27,153 nt of DNA from Zoopage sp. CT-All (lineage: Eukaryota > Zoopagomycota > Zoopagomycetes > Zoopagales > Zoopagaceae): contig QZWS01000098.1 of NCBI GenBank assembly GCA_004114245.1, positions 1 through 27,153 of the forward strand, read 5' to 3'. Under the pieces are notes generated by a model. That model was not told the origin of the DNA and searched no databases. It saw only the letters and a program-made list of their open reading frames with translations. Positions 1,910-23,220 of this stretch are shown piece by piece. Position 1 is the first letter of the stretch; each line of letters opens with the position of its first letter. The position numbers and the translations under genes are program-made.

Positions 1910-3469
1910 ATGGAACTTCCCGATGAAACCATCCTGCAAATCGCCCAATGGCTCGTAGATGGCCCTGCGACCCTCGCTCGCCTCTCTCGATCATGCAAAA
2001 AGCTGCATTCGTATGCTTTGCCTGGTTCAATGTGACCATAGACGGTGCATAGGCTGGTCGAAAAGTCAGGGCTTTGGCGCGAGGTGTATTTCCGCCGCAA
2101 CAACGTTCTATGCCCAGCTGAAATTCGCCGCAGGATCCTCGAGAGGAATTATGATGCTGGCTGGAAAGATGAGGCGAGGAGATGCTTCACGATGCGGTCA
2201 GGGTGGAAGCGTCCCGAGACCTCTGCGGCGACCGACATCGTCGCCAATCTTGTACCCGGTCTGGGCGATGAGCAGCACGGCTCACCCGATTTGAAAGGCA
2301 ATGCTGGAGCTTCAAGTGACCGGCGCCGTACGCGTCTCAAACCGAACCAGCTTCGAGCACGATGCGTTCACCTCCACCGCCTCTTTCCTGGTCTTCGCAA
2401 GTATCAGTTCGACAATCTGATCGTGGTTGCGTCGCCAAGCTCGAGAGATGCACCAGGGACACGGACAATGGCTATTTCTGTAAACGACACATCCTTGGGA
2501 AAAACCGTCGGGATGTTGCTCTACTCATTGCCCTTGCTGCATCTGCGACGCCGATGGATGTGGACAGTGCCCCGGCCGTACGCCGCGTACCCGTTCGCCA
2601 TGGTCCCTGACGATGACCTCTTTGTCGGATTTGTTTACACCAGCAATGAGCTTGCGGTAGCCAAGGCGATCTTCTTCTTATGGCATCCTGTCCTAGGCGA
2701 CGAGCACGAGATAGTGATTCCCCTTCCAGAGCGGATGCATGCGCCGCTGATGACTGTTTGTCAGGATCGGCGCCAGGCCTGGGTATTTGGCCGCGATGAG
2801 AGCAATATGCAACTGACGCGTTTCGTGTACTCACTTGCACCAAAATCGACACATGAGCTTCCACTCTCGCGTGTAGACTATTCGAATGGACGGCCGATCA
2901 ATGACGTGGGTGTGGACGACGATGTGCTGTCGGCGCTTACAACGGTTCACGGGGACGGCAGCATGGTAGTGTGGCGAATGGAAACCGGAGAGATGCTCAC
3001 CATGCTCAGCGTTGGCGACGAAGTGGGCCAGTATCCAACGGACAGTGTCTGGCTCGAAGCTACCTTGGGCAGCGTTGATGATATCATCACGTTTGCGGCG
3101 CATCTCGCGCCAAACATACTTGGCATATGGACGCTTGATTTGGCACCTGGCGCTGTATATCCTGCAAAATCGTTCTGCCAAATGGTCGTCGCTAATGAAG
3201 TATCAGGCAAGGAAGACTCGGCCAAGACGCATATTGGCTACCATAAAGGCATCTTCCTGCTGGCCAATGATGCTGGCGAAGTCTCTGTCTACGACGGTGC
3301 GCTTGTAAACGAGGGAAAGCGTGACTTGGGCGCCAAGGCATGTGAACTGGCTGTGATAGACCTGGGCATGCGTCCAAAGTGTCATGTACAGTGGGACGAC
3401 GTGTTTGTTGTGGCAAATGGACGGCGGCTCATGGCATTGTCGCTGCACAGCCCCATTCGAACGATGTAG
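1910..3469 (+). CDS. F-box / WD-like propeller protein, copy 2
   Basis: Exons 1910-2010 and 2053-3469 are joined across a 42-nt GTATGC...TAG intron, giving about 505 aa. Exon 1 (MELPDETILQIAQWL..., SRSCKKLHS) is 101 nt long and ends in the same phase as exon 1 of the preceding gene, so the two are tandem duplicates that kept their gene structure. Shared landmarks in order are FRRNNVLCPAEIRRR, LHRLFPGLRKYQ, AWVFGRDESN, VWRMETGEMLT, the AHLAPNILGIW block, GKEDSAKTH, EVSVYDG and a C-terminal VANGRRLMALSLHSPI. The predicted role is an SCF-type ubiquitin ligase adaptor with an unknown target. The two proteins have diverged widely in the propeller surface while the strands stay aligned, which fits an old duplication. 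The F-box is supported by sequence; the role is inferred from family knowledge. Confidence 0.75.
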
Positions 3470-11911: not shown

Positions 11912-12826
11912 CGGGATATCTGTGTGTATCTCTGCATGAATTGCTTTAATGCAGACATCATTGATAATGTATTTGTTTGCCAATTTATAGCAGTGAATGT
12001 TGTACATTACAGCCACCTCTGGTGCTTATGTTCTGGAATGGGATGCTTATATAGGCTTACTTGATGAACTAGGCAATGATGGTATAGTATATATTTTAGA
12101 CACTATATATATAATATTAGTGAAATGTGCCTACTTGCTACTTGGACAATTACTGATGTACTCCATGCTGCTCTTCTGCCATAGTGTATGACGAAATCAA
12201 TGAGGTACTAGGTGTGAGGTGTTGGAATTGGATGCAGTACAATGTATATTTAGATCAATACTGTTATTGGTTAGATAAGCAAATGCATATACTACTAAGT
12301 GGTTGACCTTCATAAACCAGGCCAGTTCTTTACCATGTGCTCTAATGAGTGACTTTCATACTAGAATTATCAGGGTTATATCCCTTGTTGTAATAGTCTT
12401 GTCTTATTTTTCATAATTAATATTAGTTTTATACTAAAATTGCTACTTTTTTCTGTAATCCTGCCAACAAGAGTTGCTGTTAGCCAGCAATCATTTATTA
12501 TATATATTCATAGTTTGCATCCCAGCTAAAATAGCATAGGATTACTTAGGCATTCAATAAAGGCAATATATATTGATTAGAGCTCAAACTCTAACCTTTG
12601 CTGTAATAGAATGTGATAGCCTAGTCAGGCATGACAGCTTGAAATCCAGCATAATCCAAAGAAACAAGATATCATCATGATGATAACATGACATCAATAA
12701 TCCCATAGTATAAAAGGAGAAATACAACTGCCTCCTGAAAAATGCATAAATTCTATTATCCTGAATGCATCTGAGATCTTACTCAACACAGCAACCTTGC
12801 ATGTCAGAGTGGAGTTCAGCTGTGAT
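11912..12826. other. CpG-depleted AT-rich island
   Basis: About 915 bp with only one CpG (at about 12192) between the CpG at 11912 and the one near 12828, while the flanking DNA has many CpGs per 100 bp. It is rich in TA, TG and CA, with TATATATA tracts near 12106, 12500 and 12567. No ORF in it looks like protein; the 64- and 69-codon frames are chance. Two loosely similar blocks, GGAATGGGATGC near 12036 and GGAATTGGATGC near 12225, are each followed by a TATATTTTAGA or TATATTTAGA block, hinting at an old internal repeat. The pattern fits a decayed element mutated at methylated CpG, or foreign DNA, or a specialised AT-rich chromosomal site. See findings. Confidence 0.7.
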
Positions 12827-12953
12827 GCGGCAATAAAAAACAGCAGCCACGTTTTGATTACATTGTGTACCACGAGTCCAGCCCACAGCACTGCACCAGT
12901 CACATTTTCATCCCATCACCCACCGCCACACCCCCTATTTACGCCCGCTTCAC

Positions 12954-14372
12954 ATGTTCATGCCCAGCACACTTGCTATTCTGTCGCTGTTAAGCGTCGC
13001 CTTTCTTGGTGCAGATATCCTCCAGCCGACCACGGCCTCAGCCTCGACCTCAGCCTCGACCTCTGCCAACCTCCCTCCTACCACTTCCATACAGCATCTA
13101 TGGCCGGCAACACCCAACACCCCACCACTGCCGCAAGCGAATACTGCAGATTCTACAGCAAAGTACAGAAAGCGTGTAGCTCTCGACTCGGCCCAGAATC
13201 CTCCTGCTTATGCCAATACGCGCACCGCATCACCGCCCCTGTCCAAGTCCACGTCAGACATCAATCCTCTTCGCTTGGCGCTTGGCGCTCCCAGATCCCA
13301 AGGTGCTTTAGGTAAAGCGAGGCCGCTGAGCAAGTCACAGGGGGCCCATGCATCCGCTAGTCAAGCCGTGTTCCGCCTGCCGCCCAGCACTGTCAGGGTC
13401 CCCCAGTCCGCAAATGCAAAGTACCGTATTCATCGTGAAAGAGCCACCACGCGATGGTGTCTGCCAAAGTTTAAAGCAGATAGTGCTGATGCGTTGCTCG
13501 AGAGGGCATATCGCCGGCACCAGGGCACGGCGTTCCTCGCGCAATACACCGCCATCGAGATGCCTTCCTGGACTACTTCTGTCTTGCCTACTCCAACCCT
13601 CTTAACTGTTCCAGCGCAGTCGGCTGCCACAGGTGGCGAATCTTCACTTGGCCTATGGGAATTGGTCTTCTCTCTTCCCACCAGCAAGGGTCCAAATTCC
13701 GCCCCTACCTTTCCTTTCCTTGCTCCCACTCCGACTACGGCTGTACAGTATCCGGTGCTACGAGCGCTGACAAAAGTGCTCAAGTCTGGCATGATGAGTG
13801 GATTCGATGATTTGATCTATAGTAGCAGGGACGCTACCGCTTTGGTAAACCCATTGACAATACGAAACGTCGCAAGGTTTCACGCCAGCACCGATGATAC
13901 TGCGATCGACAAGGCGCTGGAGTACACTTTTATTGCGACCGATAACATACTTATGCTTCCGGACATCATGGCCGTGATGGATTTCATCAACCCGCTCACG
14001 ACGGATGCAATACTGAGCGTTTTCTATGCTGGATTCCTCCAAGCCCGTGAAGAAACCAAGCATGCGGCGGCGGCCGCCTATTCCTCACAGATACCAGTCC
14101 CAGTCATGATTCGTGTGGGACACAGCGCTGTAGATACGGAATCGAAAGTATACTTACTCCAGACAACGCTGCAGATGATCGCGGCCCGAGCGACTCAAGT
14201 ATCTCTCGTTGTGCCTGCCGGCAATTTTGGCAACGTTTGGCAACGTGCGCAGCAACTGGCAGAAAGAATTTGGCCCAAGAATTTGCAGTCCATCGAGTTC
14301 AACACGATCGTGTTCAATACTGTGACGCTGTATCATATGGGAATGTTTAGTCCGGCGCACCGAGGAATATAG
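12954..14372 (+). CDS. Orphan secreted protein
   Basis: 472 aa, intronless, starting 128 bp past the AT-rich island. MFMPSTLAILSLLSVAFLG is a clear signal peptide, with likely cleavage around residues 20-31. A Ser/Thr/Ala/Pro linker follows, partly built from a 12-bp repeat (TASASTSASTSA), then a basic YRKR site that suits Kex2-type processing, another disordered part to about 150, and a more ordered C-terminal domain (about 260-472) with hydrophobic helices (for example LMLPDIMAVMDFINPLTTDAILSVFYAGFL). It has a single cysteine (in RWCLPK). I recognise no family. Its architecture (signal peptide, linker with dibasic site, C-terminal domain) is the same as that of the array at 18704-23220, but I could not align the domains. 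Confidence 0.65.
   Translation: MFMPSTLAILSLLSVAFLGADILQPTTASASTSASTSANLPPTTSIQHLWPATPNTPPLPQANTADSTAKYRKRVALDSAQNPPAYANTRTASPPLSKSTSDINPLRLALGAPRSQGALGKARPLSKSQGAHASASQAVFRLPPSTVRVPQSANAKYRIHRERATTRWCLPKFKADSADALLERAYRRHQGTAFLAQYTAIEMPSWTTSVLPTPTLLTVPAQSAATGGESSLGLWELVFSLPTSKGPNSAPTFPFLAPTPTTAVQYPVLRALTKVLKSGMMSGFDDLIYSSRDATALVNPLTIRNVARFHASTDDTAIDKALEYTFIATDNILMLPDIMAVMDFINPLTTDAILSVFYAGFLQAREETKHAAAAAYSSQIPVPVMIRVGHSAVDTESKVYLLQTTLQMIAARATQVSLVVPAGNFGNVWQRAQQLAERIWPKNLQSIEFNTIVFNTVTLYHMGMFSPAHRGI
13027..13072 (+). repeat. Short Ser/Thr/Ala-coding tandem repeat
   Basis: Imperfect repetition of a 12-bp unit (CCTCAGCCTCGA) just after the signal peptide coding region of the orphan secreted gene, encoding SASTSASTSA. 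Likely prone to length variation. Confidence 0.5.
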
Positions 14373-18703: not shown

Positions 18704-20497
18704 ATGACTTCCAGGAAGGTCCACGCAAAACGCTCGTCTTCAGCGCTAGTGCTGGGCGCCGTGCGGCTCCTTCCGCTCCTCATCGCCGTCCTCACGCCCG
18801 GCCTCGCCATCGTCCATGCAACAGGCCCTCCATCACTCTCCAGCAGCAGAGGCACTGACGCAAGCAATGCTGGCATTGCTTCGGGTCCAGACACTCTTTC
18901 AACCACTCCGTCAGGCGCTCTGACGAATTCAGGGCCCACAGACAGAGACGCCGTCACGCACTCGCAGACATATCCCGTGCTTGGTTACAGGTCGAAACGC
19001 CTTGAGGGGTTTCCGGGCAAGAAACAGAGCAAGTCATCTGAGCCCGAAGTTTTTCCGCCGCCTCTTCCAGACTCTTATTTAAAGCCGCTGGTGGTTGGCA
19101 AGCGACAACGGCCTGTTGAGCAGCCGTCCCGTGCACCACCGTTCCCTGGATTATCGCGTAGCCAAAGCTCTTCAAGGAATGATCAGTACATCGATATTGA
19201 TAGCGCTCCTGTGTCCGGGGATGGGCGAAGCCGGGACTATGGCTCCATACCAACTACACTCACCTTTGGAAAGACATATCGCAATAGCCTAGAGGGCACT
19301 CCATTGTCAAGTCCGGTACTCCAACCTACCACCGACACTATCGACAAGCAGGTCTTGGAAACGCCGTTAAGCCCCGAGCATAGTGACCTTAAACACACGC
19401 CCTGGCGCGCTGTGCACTCTAAAAGTGACAAGTCAATACCGTCGCCAAACGTTGCCACTGCAACCACCACGACCACCACGACTGCAACCACCTCGAACAC
19501 GATGAATCCTTCAACAAACCCGGCATCAAAGACAGCCACGACAGTAACAACGACCTCGGCTTACGGCGTCGCTATGCCTCCGGGTTTTGATATTGTCGGC
19601 CCTATGAGGCAATTCTTTAAGTTCATCGAAAATACCAAGCCATGCGCGATAGAACTCTATCGCGGCAGTTCAACCGTTGCCCCGCAGTTTGCTAGCGAGC
19701 TGATTGCACTCGACCCCTCGCATAATTATATTTTCAATGCGCTTGTATCGAAATGGACTCCGCTGAAATCGACATTAGATGGCGCTCAGTCGCCTGAAGC
19801 GAAAAAGGCTGCTGAGCAGCAGATGCTAACGTTTATCAACAACGTTAGCGGGGCTGTCAAGAGCATGATTACTAAAGCACCCGATGAAATCATCCCGTAT
19901 ACCAGTTGGAAACCCTTGGTCGACGATCTCGAGCGTATCCAAGTGGTAATGGACGAGAATTCGAAAGCGAAATTCCCCGAGGACGGAAAAGACCCGGCCC
20001 AGGTTAAGTCGGTGCCCATCAGCACACTGGATATTAGTGCGCAGCTGGCCAAGCGCTTCTTCGATGGTTTATTGGCAAAGCCAGTCAACTTGAACTTGAA
20101 TGCGATGCAGGCTGTAGTCGTTCACATCATGACCCTCATCCGCCTCCGTCCCCTTTTTCCTCTCGGGGCCGTTACGTTACCGTTCGAATCCGAATACGGC
20201 GTAGACCAAATAAACCTCTATAAAGAAGTCATGAGGATGTCGACGGGACACCAAAACCTTACATTTGGCATGCAAAGCATGCTCTTCCGACAGCCTCTGA
20301 AAAACGTGCCCGGTACGGAGATCAAACGCATAGGTGATGCGGTGAGGGAATTTTTCAAGGTGGTAGTAATTTCATTCGATGACGTTTTCCCTAAGGAATG
20401 GGTGAAGATGGTCAACGATAAGGTTGCGGCAGCGAAAAGTCGTGGACATGTGTGTCCGGCGGCAACGAGAGTAGATGCCCCAAAGACTGCTGTGTGA
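18704..20497 (+). CDS. Secreted two-cysteine family protein, copy 1 (long form)
   Basis: 597 aa from ATG 18704, intronless. After a short basic start comes a signal peptide (LLPLLIAVLTPGLAIVHATG). A long Ser/Thr/Pro linker (about 40-280) includes dibasic KR sites at 98-99 and 133-134 that suit Kex2-like processing, and a Thr run encoded by an (ACCACG) microsatellite near 19460. The C-terminal domain (about 290-590) begins FFKFIENTKPCAIELYR and carries a WKP, VVHIMTLIRLRP and EFFKVVVISFDDVFPKEW in that order, ending with GHVCP. The same landmarks occur in the two following genes. The protein has exactly two cysteines, C314 and C584, at the two ends of the domain. I recognise no known family. 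Secretion is well supported; function is not known. It probably founded the array, since copies 2 and 3 share features it lacks. Confidence 0.7.
   Translation: MTSRKVHAKRSSSALVLGAVRLLPLLIAVLTPGLAIVHATGPPSLSSSRGTDASNAGIASGPDTLSTTPSGALTNSGPTDRDAVTHSQTYPVLGYRSKRLEGFPGKKQSKSSEPEVFPPPLPDSYLKPLVVGKRQRPVEQPSRAPPFPGLSRSQSSSRNDQYIDIDSAPVSGDGRSRDYGSIPTTLTFGKTYRNSLEGTPLSSPVLQPTTDTIDKQVLETPLSPEHSDLKHTPWRAVHSKSDKSIPSPNVATATTTTTTTATTSNTMNPSTNPASKTATTVTTTSAYGVAMPPGFDIVGPMRQFFKFIENTKPCAIELYRGSSTVAPQFASELIALDPSHNYIFNALVSKWTPLKSTLDGAQSPEAKKAAEQQMLTFINNVSGAVKSMITKAPDEIIPYTSWKPLVDDLERIQVVMDENSKAKFPEDGKDPAQVKSVPISTLDISAQLAKRFFDGLLAKPVNLNLNAMQAVVVHIMTLIRLRPLFPLGAVTLPFESEYGVDQINLYKEVMRMSTGHQNLTFGMQSMLFRQPLKNVPGTEIKRIGDAVREFFKVVVISFDDVFPKEWVKMVNDKVAAAKSRGHVCPAATRVDAPKTAV
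19459..19500 (+). repeat. Thr-coding ACC/ACG microsatellite
   Basis: A run of ACCACGACC-type codons in the linker of copy 1, encoding ATTTTTTTATT. A plausible site of length variation between strains. Confidence 0.5.
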
Positions 20498-20512
20498 ATG
20501 AAGCAGTGCGGC

Positions 20513-20662
20513 ATATTAAAATCTTACCCCTGTAAACGGGACAACCGCCAATGCTCGAGACGCTTTTTCTCCTCCACCCTACAGCCGCTGCATCCGTCCT
20601 CTGTGAGGCCAAGATTGCGCCATCCCACTCTACACCACACACTCGTACACTCTCGCTACACC
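20513..20662 (+). promoter_or_regulatory. Conserved leader/promoter of array copy 2
   Basis: From a TATTAAA-like box near 20513 and a CCGCCAATGC block (CCAAT box) at 20546 up to the ATG, nearly every base matches the region before copy 3 (21927-22074). The shared stretch includes GACGCTTTT, CACCCTACAGCCGCTGCATC and GAGGCCAAGATTGCGCCA. A CCAAT core suits a HAP/CBF-type factor. Confidence 0.6.
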
Positions 20663-21727
20663 ATGCATATCTCCGTCGCCTCCTCATCGACATCGAGCTT
20701 CCTGCGGCTGGCTCCGCTGCTCGTCGCCCTTGTCGCAGCTTCCCTGGACATGTCGTCAGCCTCAAATCGATATGCGGTCAAGCTTGACGGGCCACCCGAT
20801 TTCACGGCTTTTGCTAACAATCAACAGCAGCCAGGCCCAGTGGTGCCACCGGGCCCAGTAGTGCTGCCACAGGCTCAAGTATTGCCACCGCCGGTTCAAG
20901 TAGTGCCGCAGCAAGTCAATGCTAATATTCAAAATGTGGACCCGAACTTCATCGATGTACCAGCGGATCTATCACTGAGCAACGTGCTGCTAAAGGCCTT
21001 CTATTTCATTGAGACAAATGGCCCATGCCACCTTGAGCTCTACCGGAACAGCGCGCCCACGACAAAGCCGACAGCGCTCAGCATTATTCAAGGTATGTTC
21101 TCTCTCCTTGATAACATCATTTAACGTGAGATAGGCATTTCTGGGGGTAATAACATGGAGACATCGCTTACGTTCGATAAGACTAACTTAAACGCTGATC
21201 AAATCAAAGAAGTTGTCTTCTCCGTGAGTCGTGCGATCAAGCTCATTCTCACCCACGCCCCGATCAAGATCATTACCGGGGACGAATGGAAGCCGACTGT
21301 CAACAAGCTTCTAGCGCTTCAGGTGAAAAAAGGAAAGCAGACGCCGGTCACGGCAAGCGATATCAAGGTGGAGCTGGTGAGAGGCTTCTTTACCAAATTA
21401 AGCAACAAAGCCAAGGACAGGGCATCGTTACGAAAGCTCGTGCTTGTGCATCTCATGACCTTGATACGCATACGGCCGAGCAAAGCCAATCCGGCGAACG
21501 CTTTCGACTTCCCTCAGTCGCAGAAGAACATTCTTTTTACCTTTTCCAGCATGCTCCTGCCGATGTCCCATAACAACCAGGATGCCAAACAGGTCGGCAA
21601 GCTGGTACTGGAGTTTTTCAAGGTGCTGGTGGTGAATTTCGATGCGCTATTCCCCGAGCTTGTCCAGAGCGTGGCAACGAACGTCGGAGTGATTACCGGT
21701 ACTCTTGGCGGCTTGTGTCCGCCGTGA
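20663..21727 (+). CDS. Secreted two-cysteine family protein, copy 2
   Basis: Exons 20663-21092 and 21135-21727 are joined across a 42-nt GTATGT...TAG intron, giving 340 aa. There is a signal peptide (FLRLAPLLVALVAASLDMSSA), then a Pro/Val/Gln linker (PGPVVPPGPVV, about 55-90). The domain starts FYFIETNGPCHLELYRNS and carries EWKP, LVLVHLMTLIRIRP and LEFFKVLVVNFDALFPELV, ending GGLCPP. There are exactly two cysteines, C122 and C338. It is a clear paralogue of the genes on both sides and closest to copy 3, with which it shares the intron position and length, the leader and the 3' flank. No known family is recognised. It has no Kex2-like KR after the signal peptide, unlike copies 1 and 3. Extracellular role unknown. 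Confidence 0.8.
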
Positions 21728-22074
21728 GTGCGAGTGTGCATGTGTTGGGGCCGCTGGCGGTCCTCTAGAATACAGAGGAATGATTCCTGTATTCTCCCAG
21801 AATTAGATGAGCAGCAAACAGCCCTTATATCCTCCATTGTCCTAGCTCGTGATCATGCCCAGGGGTGTGTCGGGTTGGTGGCGATTTCCGGGTCAGAATT
21901 TGACTGCCTGTCAGCCCGACCGCAAATATTAAATTCATACACTAGTAAAACCGGGCAGCCGCCAATGCCCGAGACGCTTTTCTCCCCACCCTACAGCCGC
22001 TGCATCCGTCCTCTGTGAGGCCAAGATTGCGCCACCTCACTCTACACCACACACTCGTACACACTCGTTACACC
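21728..22074 (+). promoter_or_regulatory. Interval between copies 2 and 3 with conserved leader
   Basis: The first part (to about 21762) repeats the 3' flank seen after copy 3, ending GGGCCGCTGGCGGTC. About 160 bp of unshared sequence follow. From a TATTAAA box at about 21927 and CCGCCAATGC at 21959 to the ATG at 22075, the sequence nearly equals the leader of copy 2. It contains no gene. Confidence 0.6.
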
Positions 22075-23220
22075 ATGCATCTCTTCGTTGCTTCATCGAC
22101 AGCGGACTTCTTGCGGCTGGTTCCGTTGCTCGTCGCTCTTGCCACAGCTACCCTGAGCATGGTATCAGCCGGGGATCGCCCTAAACGACACGGGGTCCGT
22201 TTTGAACAAACACCCACTTTTCCGATTATTGGTGGCAGCAGACAGCCAGGCCCTCTGGTGCCAGTAGTGTTGCCACAGGTTCAAGTGCTGCCACCGCCAG
22301 GTCAAGCGCCGCCAGGTCAAGCGCCGCCAGTTCAAGCGCCGCCAGTTCAAGCGCCGCCATCGGCAGTTGAAGTGGTCCTGCAGCAGATCATTACTGACCC
22401 TCTGGATGACGGCTCCAGCGTTCTCAATGTGCCAGAGGATCTGCCATTGGACAATGTGCTGGTTAAGGGATTCGAATTCGTTGAGAAGCATGGCCCATGC
22501 CACCTCTCGCTCTACCGAACTAGTTCACTCACGACAAAGTATGTAGCTGAGCGTATTATACGAGGTGTGCACACTCTCCTTAACATCCTCAATTAACGCA
22601 TGAAAGGCATTTCCAAGGGCAAGACCCTGGAGACATCGCTTGGGTTCGTCGAGAATAGTTTAAACGGCGATCAAATCAAAGAAGTCGTCTTCGCTGTGGG
22701 TCGGGCGATCAAGCTCATCTTTGCCTTCGCCCCGACCAAGATCATCAGCATAGTGCGATGGAAGCCGCTTCTCAAGAAGCTCATAGGATTCCAGATGGGC
22801 AAAAAAGGCGATGCGCCACTCACGGCAGCAGAAATCCAGGCGAAGATCTCGCATCAGCAGATGAAAGAGTTCTTTACCAGGGAAGCCAGACTACCCAAGC
22901 CACCTCAGGTCAATGCTATGCAGCTGAAACTCGTCCTCGTACATCTCATGTCCATGATTCGCGTGCGACCGGGCAATCCAGATCCGACATCCTTTGATTT
23001 CCCTCAGCTGCAAAAAAACCTAGTATTCACCTTTCCCAGCATACTCCTGCCTATAGCTGAAGTCGAGAGGAAGGATGTTGCATTGGTCGGCAAGCTGGCA
23101 ATTGAGTTTTTCAAGGTGGTGGTGAAGAACTTTGATGCGCTTTTTCCCGAGCTTGTCGATGATGTTGCAGAGAAGGTTAATATGCTCACCGGAAGGCTTG
23201 GCGGCTTGTGTCCGGCGTGA
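22075..23220 (+). CDS. Secreted two-cysteine family protein, copy 3
   Basis: Exons 22075-22564 and 22607-23220 are joined across a 42-nt GTGTGC...AAG intron at the same place as in copy 2, giving 367 aa. Signal peptide (FLRLVPLLVALATATLSMVSA), then a KR site at 37-38 (RPKRHG). A linker with four QAPP units (about 77-95) leads to the domain starting FEFVEKHGPCHLSLYRTS, with RWKP, LVLVHLMSMIRVRP and IEFFKVVVKNFDALFPELV, and an end of GGLCPA. There are exactly two cysteines, C142 and C365. Compared with copy 2, the domain carries a short extra helix (AKISHQQMKEFF). Unknown family. The conserved pieces group around the two Cys and the FFKVxVxxFDxLFPE stretch, which suggests one folded domain tied by a disulfide. 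Function is unknown. Confidence 0.8.
22300..22360 (+). repeat. 15-bp tandem repeat coding QAPP(G/V)
   Basis: Four units of (G/T)TCAAGCGCCGCCA-G in frame, with a G or T at the first base giving QAPPG or QAPPV. Copy 2 has only irregular PGPVV/VLPPP in this place. Likely length-variable. Confidence 0.75.

Follow-up and report, generated by a model that had tools for sequence, protein, structure and literature searches.

Three tandem, secreted-looking fungal proteins and a tentative RhoGAP-like reading of their shared domain

Parasitoid wasps of Leptopilina export RhoGAPs, LbGAP and EsGAP1-3 among them (PMC2156102, PMC8446075). In LbGAP, the substitutions K111A and R115A left no detectable interaction with Rac1, while R74A and S190A weakened it (PMC2156102). 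The same paper reports that the GTPase-activating protein (GAP) domain of ExoS adopts a tertiary fold unlike that of eukaryotic RhoGAPs. Here, we describe three adjacent genes, P1, P2, and P3, which lie head to tail on the + strand at 18704-23220 of contig QZWS01000098.1 (assembly GCA_004114245.1). The whole 27,153-nucleotide stretch is referred to as the window. The analysed assembly comprises 8.62 Mb in 419 contigs, and the array falls within one contig. Our preferred interpretation, held tentatively and with somewhat less than even confidence, is that the array encodes three secreted proteins in which a highly diverged RhoGAP-like domain makes up the folded part, comparable to the Leptopilina venom RhoGAPs.

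Gene models, cysteines and paralogy

The models for P2 and P3, including their introns, are sequence-based, and the features of the array are as follows.

18704-20497, + strand: P1 gene, 597 amino acids, a single exon and open reading frame (ORF); putative signal peptide at residues ~1-39, long Ser/Thr-rich linker at ~40-290, and RhoGAP-like domain at 291-597, with C314 and C584
19574-20494, + strand: P1 RhoGAP-like domain; codons of R320 (Arg finger position) at 19661, K386 at 19859, and N518 at 20255
20663-21727, + strand: P2 gene, 340 amino acids, one intron
20663-21092, + strand: P2 exon 1, with putative signal peptide, Pro/Gln-rich linker, and the domain start with C122 and R128
21093-21134, + strand: P2 intron, 42 nt, GTATGT...TTAAC...TAG, phase 1
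21135-21727, + strand: P2 exon 2, the remaining domain with K179, N275, and C338
22075-23220, + strand: P3 gene, 367 amino acids, one intron
22075-22564, + strand: P3 exon 1, with putative signal peptide, Pro/Gln-rich linker, and the domain start with C142 and R148
22565-22606, + strand: P3 intron, 42 nt, GTGTGC...TTAAC...AAG, phase 1
22607-23220, + strand: P3 exon 2, the remaining domain with K199, N301, and C365

The two introns were absent from the original prediction. Both follow the GT...AG rule, with equal length and phase and with TTAAC at an identical offset, and the sole premature in-frame stop of the unspliced P2 and P3 frames falls within the intron. Short introns seem usual in this genome, judging by eye from a cyclophilin gene (contig C11) that appears cut by several.

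Exactly two cysteines were found in each full-length protein, those given above, one at either end of the homologous region and spanning 217 to 271 residues with both counted. From this arrangement, a single disulfide that closes the domain is likely. P2 and P3 are 47% identical over their whole length (E 2.6e-100), and the P1 domain shares 28% identity with that of P2 (E 1.3e-23) and 29% with that of P3 (E 8.9e-22). The three genes are paralogues, with similarity far beyond chance. Between P2 and P3, the NG86 method gave a nonsynonymous rate (dN) of 0.33, a synonymous rate (dS) of 0.56, and a dN/dS of 0.58 over 334 codons, and both genes are under coding constraint. A protein search of the genome found three copies, all in the array, a lower bound because the assembly looks incomplete (one tubulin match; 5.8S rRNA not found).

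Gene models, hydropathy, and pairwise alignment bear out the original prediction of three secreted-looking paralogues with variable low-complexity linkers and a homologous domain, as well as its pattern of two cysteines at the domain ends. The internal landmarks it listed keep their order in all three proteins, although P3 has VHLMSMIRVRP and not the proposed VHxMTLIRxRP. What it called fast-changing is better described as moderate, with the P2/P3 dN/dS below 1.

Likeness of the domain to RhoGAP

Searches for direct relatives were negative, in line with the original prediction, across the protein, viral, and prokaryote collections used. Whole P3 gave no match at E <= 0.1 against a collection of 5.8 billion protein sequences, for which the 7997 top word-sharing candidates were scored and linker words may have filled many of those places. 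Residues 98-340 of P2 gave none at E <= 1 against the same collection (512 candidates, with a length limit that just excluded the 597-residue P1), and relatives of the array were not found in viral and prokaryote contigs. A control search with the neighbouring USP39 gene listed at least 100 proteins, the best from Thamnocephalis sphaerospora (41%) with Mucorales, chytrids, and Syncephalis near, so the protein collection does contain early-diverging fungi. Pfam matches to Cas6, Gag p19, and Big_3 (E 0.03-0.09) were below cut-offs, each in one member, and were taken as chance.

The further claim that the domain could be placed in no family is weakened, as profile comparison points to RhoGAP, yet no Pfam family is reached. 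Searched against 177,635 PDB sequences, a profile of the three sequences returned four matches at E <= 10. The top two are to the human ARHGAP5 RhoGAP domain (E 0.0074 and 0.0087), in an alignment that runs from helix A through the finger loop to helix B, and the remaining two are to de novo proteins (0.63 and 0.65). With the P1 domain alone, the only two PDB matches at E <= 1 were both p190A RhoGAP (0.43 and 0.81). A further profile, in which two read-through rows carry intron-coded residues, gave E 0.011 in a search that is not independent of the three-sequence one.

In hhalign comparisons, nine fuller RhoGAP rows aligned over 172 columns (P 0.00043, score 31.7), with profile positions 10-221 on RhoGAP 4-175 of 180, the same register as for eight rows (82 columns, P 0.0021, score 27.6). 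None of 300 column permutations exceeded the nine-row score (maximum 23.3), the reversed profile reached 14.1, and the maximum of 200 permutations for the eight-row comparison was 24.2. Real-protein nulls were also lower, at 0/297 unrelated three-row profiles (maximum 20.6) and 0/149 unrelated targets (maximum 18.4), all drawn from one family (USP39) and not independent draws. The score climbs with the number of members, from 20.5-22.6 for single sequences to 26.2 for P2 and P3 together (permutations 22.2) and 31.7 for all three. Against a model of 11 RhoGAPs, the P1 domain scored 9.9 bits, with none of 3000 shuffles of its own above 7.1.

Three RhoGAP positions are invariant in 3/3 members: the finger Arg (R320, R128, and R148, within LYR aligned to GIFR/GLYR), the helix-B Lys (K386, K179, and K199, with the Pro at +7 kept), and the helix-F Asn (N518, N275, and N301). 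The Lys is found in 9/9 RhoGAP rows and corresponds to K111 in LbGAP and K122 in p50; the Asn column has N in 7/9 rows and S in 2/9. By eye, further landmarks can be mapped in pairs: FIExxGPCxxxLYRxSS to IExxGLxxEGIYRxSG, VxxAxKxxxxxAPxxII to VAxxLKxFLRELPEPLL, VHLMTLIR to the helix-E HLxxV, NLxFTFxSMLL to NLAIVFGPTLL, and EFFKVxVxNFDxLFPE to the last RhoGAP helix. In C200, a RhoGAP gene of ordinary type from this genome and one of four examined, there seems by eye to be a phase-1 intron two residues off the P2/P3 intron position, as counted from the finger Arg and near the end of helix A2. A shared phase-1 position is weakly compatible with a common origin.

Other results weigh against a RhoGAP origin. 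Pfam hmmscan found RhoGAP PF00620 in 0/3 members at E <= 10, the profile of P2 and P3 had no PDB match at E <= 10, and the hhalign probability was just 13.5% with eight rows and 33.9% with nine. As single sequences, P1 and P3 did not surpass the highest of 200 permutations, and P2 barely did. P2 and P3 were not among the matches listed for the 11-RhoGAP model (to about E 25), and one P2 shuffle (10.8 bits) and one P3 shuffle (11.2) beat P1 there. The ARHGAP5 and p190A rows had been chosen for the RhoGAP profile since they were PDB matches. Without these two rows, the score fell to 23.0 over 82 columns (P 0.012), so the RhoGAP case leans on that subfamily; the register was kept (10-103 on 4-85) and 0/200 permutations were higher (maximum 22.3). 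With ARHGAP12 and ARHGAP15 removed too, the score dropped to 20.2, less than the maximum over 200 permutations (23.3). The two RhoGAPs of the same genome alone gave 15.5 in another register, below permutations (19.4).

Several motifs are also missing. The helix-B Arg at K+4 is replaced (T390, T183, and A203), and the second Pro of LPxP is K/K/E with the first Pro kept. Neither the Gly that precedes the finger nor the Met nor the FGP motif (FGPxLL) is retained. In the RhoGAP rows, the K+4 column is R in 7/9, with A in ARHGAP5 and S in p190A; p190 is an active GAP. P1 has N-glycosylation sequons at N380 (19841-19849) and N518 (20255-20263), and P2 and P3 have none. The second of these sits at the position equivalent to the RhoGAP asparagine, and its use would mask that residue. 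AlphaFold2 models built from the family's own sequences only were mainly helical, with a mean predicted local distance difference test score of 42.5 and 44.2, too poor for judging the fold or the Cys-Cys distance. Foldseek on the second model listed 61 matches at E <= 10 and none at E <= 0.001.

Taken together, we regard the RhoGAP relationship as a supported hypothesis of moderate strength that draws chiefly on similarity to p190-type RhoGAPs, and not as established homology. Because the tested features fail, we describe the domain as RhoGAP-like and probably derived, and not as a RhoGAP member. It approaches a normally intracellular family, a finding that the original prediction had considered damaging to its own reading, but the match is not a strong one and the N-terminal signals remain.

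It is also quite possible, although we lean away from it, that the secreted domain is an all-helical orphan with no relation to RhoGAP, its similarity being chance among helical proteins, and that it works as a binding or wall protein, secreted, lineage-specific, and held closed by a single disulfide. Such an origin would account for the missing Pfam match, the empty protein, viral, and prokaryote searches, the P2 and P3 profile without a PDB match, the missing motifs, and a profile match that is mostly lost without p190-type rows. It sits less easily with best PDB matches that are RhoGAPs, with three invariant functional positions, and with colinearity over 172 columns above both permutation and real-protein nulls, in a register that stays the same without the p190 rows.

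We consider it rather unlikely that the domain is RhoGAP-derived with catalysis lost and that, carried on a flexible stalk rich in Pro/Gln or Ser/Thr, it now acts as a scaffold or adhesive head, either secreted or at the cell surface. The long and variable linkers and the sequon at the P1 Asn position fit such a role, as does the lost K+4 Arg, given that R115A abolished detectable Rac1 binding by LbGAP (PMC2156102). On the other hand, the finger Arg and the Lys are invariant in all three proteins despite 28% identity. Human ARHGAP5 and p190A likewise lack the K+4 Arg, so its loss need not mean inactivity.

Export, divergence and setting

Signal peptides were judged by Kyte-Doolittle hydropathy and the -3/-1 rule. 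Each protein has one N-terminal hydrophobic stretch with -3/-1 type cleavage sites, and the 19-residue maximum is 2.16 in P1, 1.68 in P2, and 1.96 in P3. Beyond residue 45, no other window is above 1.6 in any of them. The C-termini are not hydrophobic by eye, with no sign of a glycosylphosphatidylinositol anchor. These features suggest that all three proteins are exported.

The P2 and P3 leaders and linkers contain four further features.

20535-20740, + strand: P2 leader element, 5' flank and signal-peptide coding region, 87% identical to its P3 counterpart
21949-22149, + strand: P3 leader element, 5' flank and signal-peptide coding region, counterpart of 20535-20740
20839-20906, + strand: P2 linker tandem repeat, 21 nt, 3.2 copies, in-frame
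22294-22359, + strand: P3 linker tandem repeat, 15 nt, 4.4 copies, in-frame

The 206-nt leader element matches only at P2 and P3 in the incomplete genome. Between the two genes, 139/171 aligned bases of the 5' flank and 29/42 of the intron are identical, and dS is 0.29 in the signal-peptide codons (33 codons) versus 0.61 in the domain (242 codons). The 5' flank and signal-peptide codons are more alike than the domain and intron, a pattern that either partial gene conversion or conservation of the promoter and leader could explain. The P1 linker has ~250 residues and is Ser/Thr-rich by eye, and those of P2 and P3 are Pro/Gln-rich and repeat-built. Since the latter two use different short in-frame repeats, linker length probably changes by slippage.

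That the N-termini are not signal peptides, and that the proteins are cytosolic or membrane-tethered and act in the fungus itself, is quite improbable: the suggested domain family is normally intracellular, the signals rest on hydropathy, and basic residues and Ser are abundant at the P1 N-terminus, but each of the three N-termini contains a hydrophobic core with -3/-1 sites, the proteins show no further strongly hydrophobic segment, exactly two cysteines at the domain ends suit an oxidising compartment, and P2/P3 dS is lower in the signal-peptide codons than in the domain.

The phylogenetic setting was examined through a USP39 tree of 45 rows, made of the query and 44 hand-chosen from 100 listed matches. 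In it, the window gene sits close to the fungal base on a very long branch (3.42), and its placement next to Thamnocephalis and Syncephalis is unsupported. Searches for IFT57 and IFT46, genes that could separate a flagellated chytrid from a zoopagomycete, gave no match, a result that carries no weight given the single tubulin match and an IFT46 control that also came back empty. The organism is probably an early-diverging, fast-evolving fungus, most likely outside Dikarya and perhaps in Zoopagales. A single-cell study of such mycoparasites (PMC6784888) provides context and not identification.

Other features of the window were also observed. A second tandem pair of + strand ORFs, at 343-1782 and 2192-3469, is 38% identical across an alignment of 437 residues (E 3.7e-100). 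In Pfam, the first ORF matches nothing but beta-propellers, below threshold, and the second has no match. A secreted-looking orphan of 472 amino acids at 12954-14372 has an N-terminal hydrophobic stretch, a linker that is Ser/Thr/Pro-rich by eye, and one Cys. It has no Pfam match at E <= 1, its 13401-14369 part has no PDB match below E 1.1, and it was ruled out as a fourth array member (profile score -2.4). Directly upstream, 12001-12950 is AT-rich without an ATG ORF of at least 100 amino acids, and the GC content is 0.378 at 12001-13000 versus 0.51-0.61 in other 1-kb steps.

Proposed action and comparison with known systems

Under our preferred RhoGAP-derived interpretation, an intracellular RhoGAP gene, or its domain, would have acquired a signal peptide together with a linker prone to repeats. 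The domain would have become closed by one disulfide that links a Cys ahead of the arginine-finger loop with one following the last helix, and the gene would have duplicated twice. The product may bind Rho-family GTPases of a contacted organism and perhaps stimulate GTP hydrolysis in the manner of the wasp-venom RhoGAPs. With the finger Arg, the helix-B Lys, and the helix-F Asn all retained, GTPase binding or stimulation would be the most likely mode of action, and GTPase targeting is thus the likeliest, if unproven, role. Delivery into a partner cell and GAP activity are both presumed here, and a host-interaction role is plausible. The fuller picture, of secreted RhoGAP effectors in an early-diverging and possibly parasitic fungus that are disulfide-armoured, exported, duplicated, and used on partner-cell GTPases independently of wasps and bacteria, is one that we consider unlikely as a whole.

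Among the papers listed in open-licence PMC literature on secreted or fungal RhoGAP effectors, none reports a fungal secreted RhoGAP, as judged by title and abstract start. Most concern wasps and Drosophila, two deal with psyllids, and the fungal ones address other topics. The RhoGAP interpretation gives genes that would otherwise be called 'hypothetical secreted protein' a concrete and cheap test, namely GTPase binding and a GAP assay. Even without GAP activity, it would mean, if true, that a cytosolic signalling domain was rebuilt as a disulfide-closed extracellular fold.

Compared with RhoGAP PF00620, for which ARHGAP5/p190 is nearest (PDB 2ee4, 2ee5, 5irc, 3fk2), the array shares the order of elements in the profile alignment, the finger Arg, the helix-B Lys, and the Asn. 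ARHGAP5 resembles it further, with a finger-loop Cys present and the K+4 Arg absent. The array differs from PF00620 in its putative signal peptides, in a second Cys that follows an additional stretch at the C-terminus, and in lacking the FGP motif, the Met, and the second Pro of LPxP.

The Leptopilina venom RhoGAPs would be similar to the array, taken as exported and RhoGAP-derived, in being exported, with RhoGAP as the sole domain, duplicated, and fast-diverging, in organisms that also keep ordinary RhoGAPs (PMC2156102, PMC8446075). In the genome studied here, RhoGAP matches above the curated cut-off were found on 6 other contigs, besides the 3 tandem copies. In contrast to the array, the wasp proteins are from insects, injected with venom, and carried in vesicles, and the EsGAPs are recognised as PF00620. 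LbGAP further differs in keeping both K111 and R115 (PMC2156102). The resemblance between the array and the Leptopilina RhoGAPs is offered as a likeness, without any claim of common origin.

With the ExoS-type bacterial RhoGAP toxins, the array would share only a work-alike idea, an exported GAP acting on the Rho GTPases of another organism (PMC2156102), and these toxins differ from it in fold and route. If our interpretation is true, a fungus would join parasitoid wasps and, with another fold, bacteria as a source of exported RhoGAP domains, making this a third origin of the tactic.

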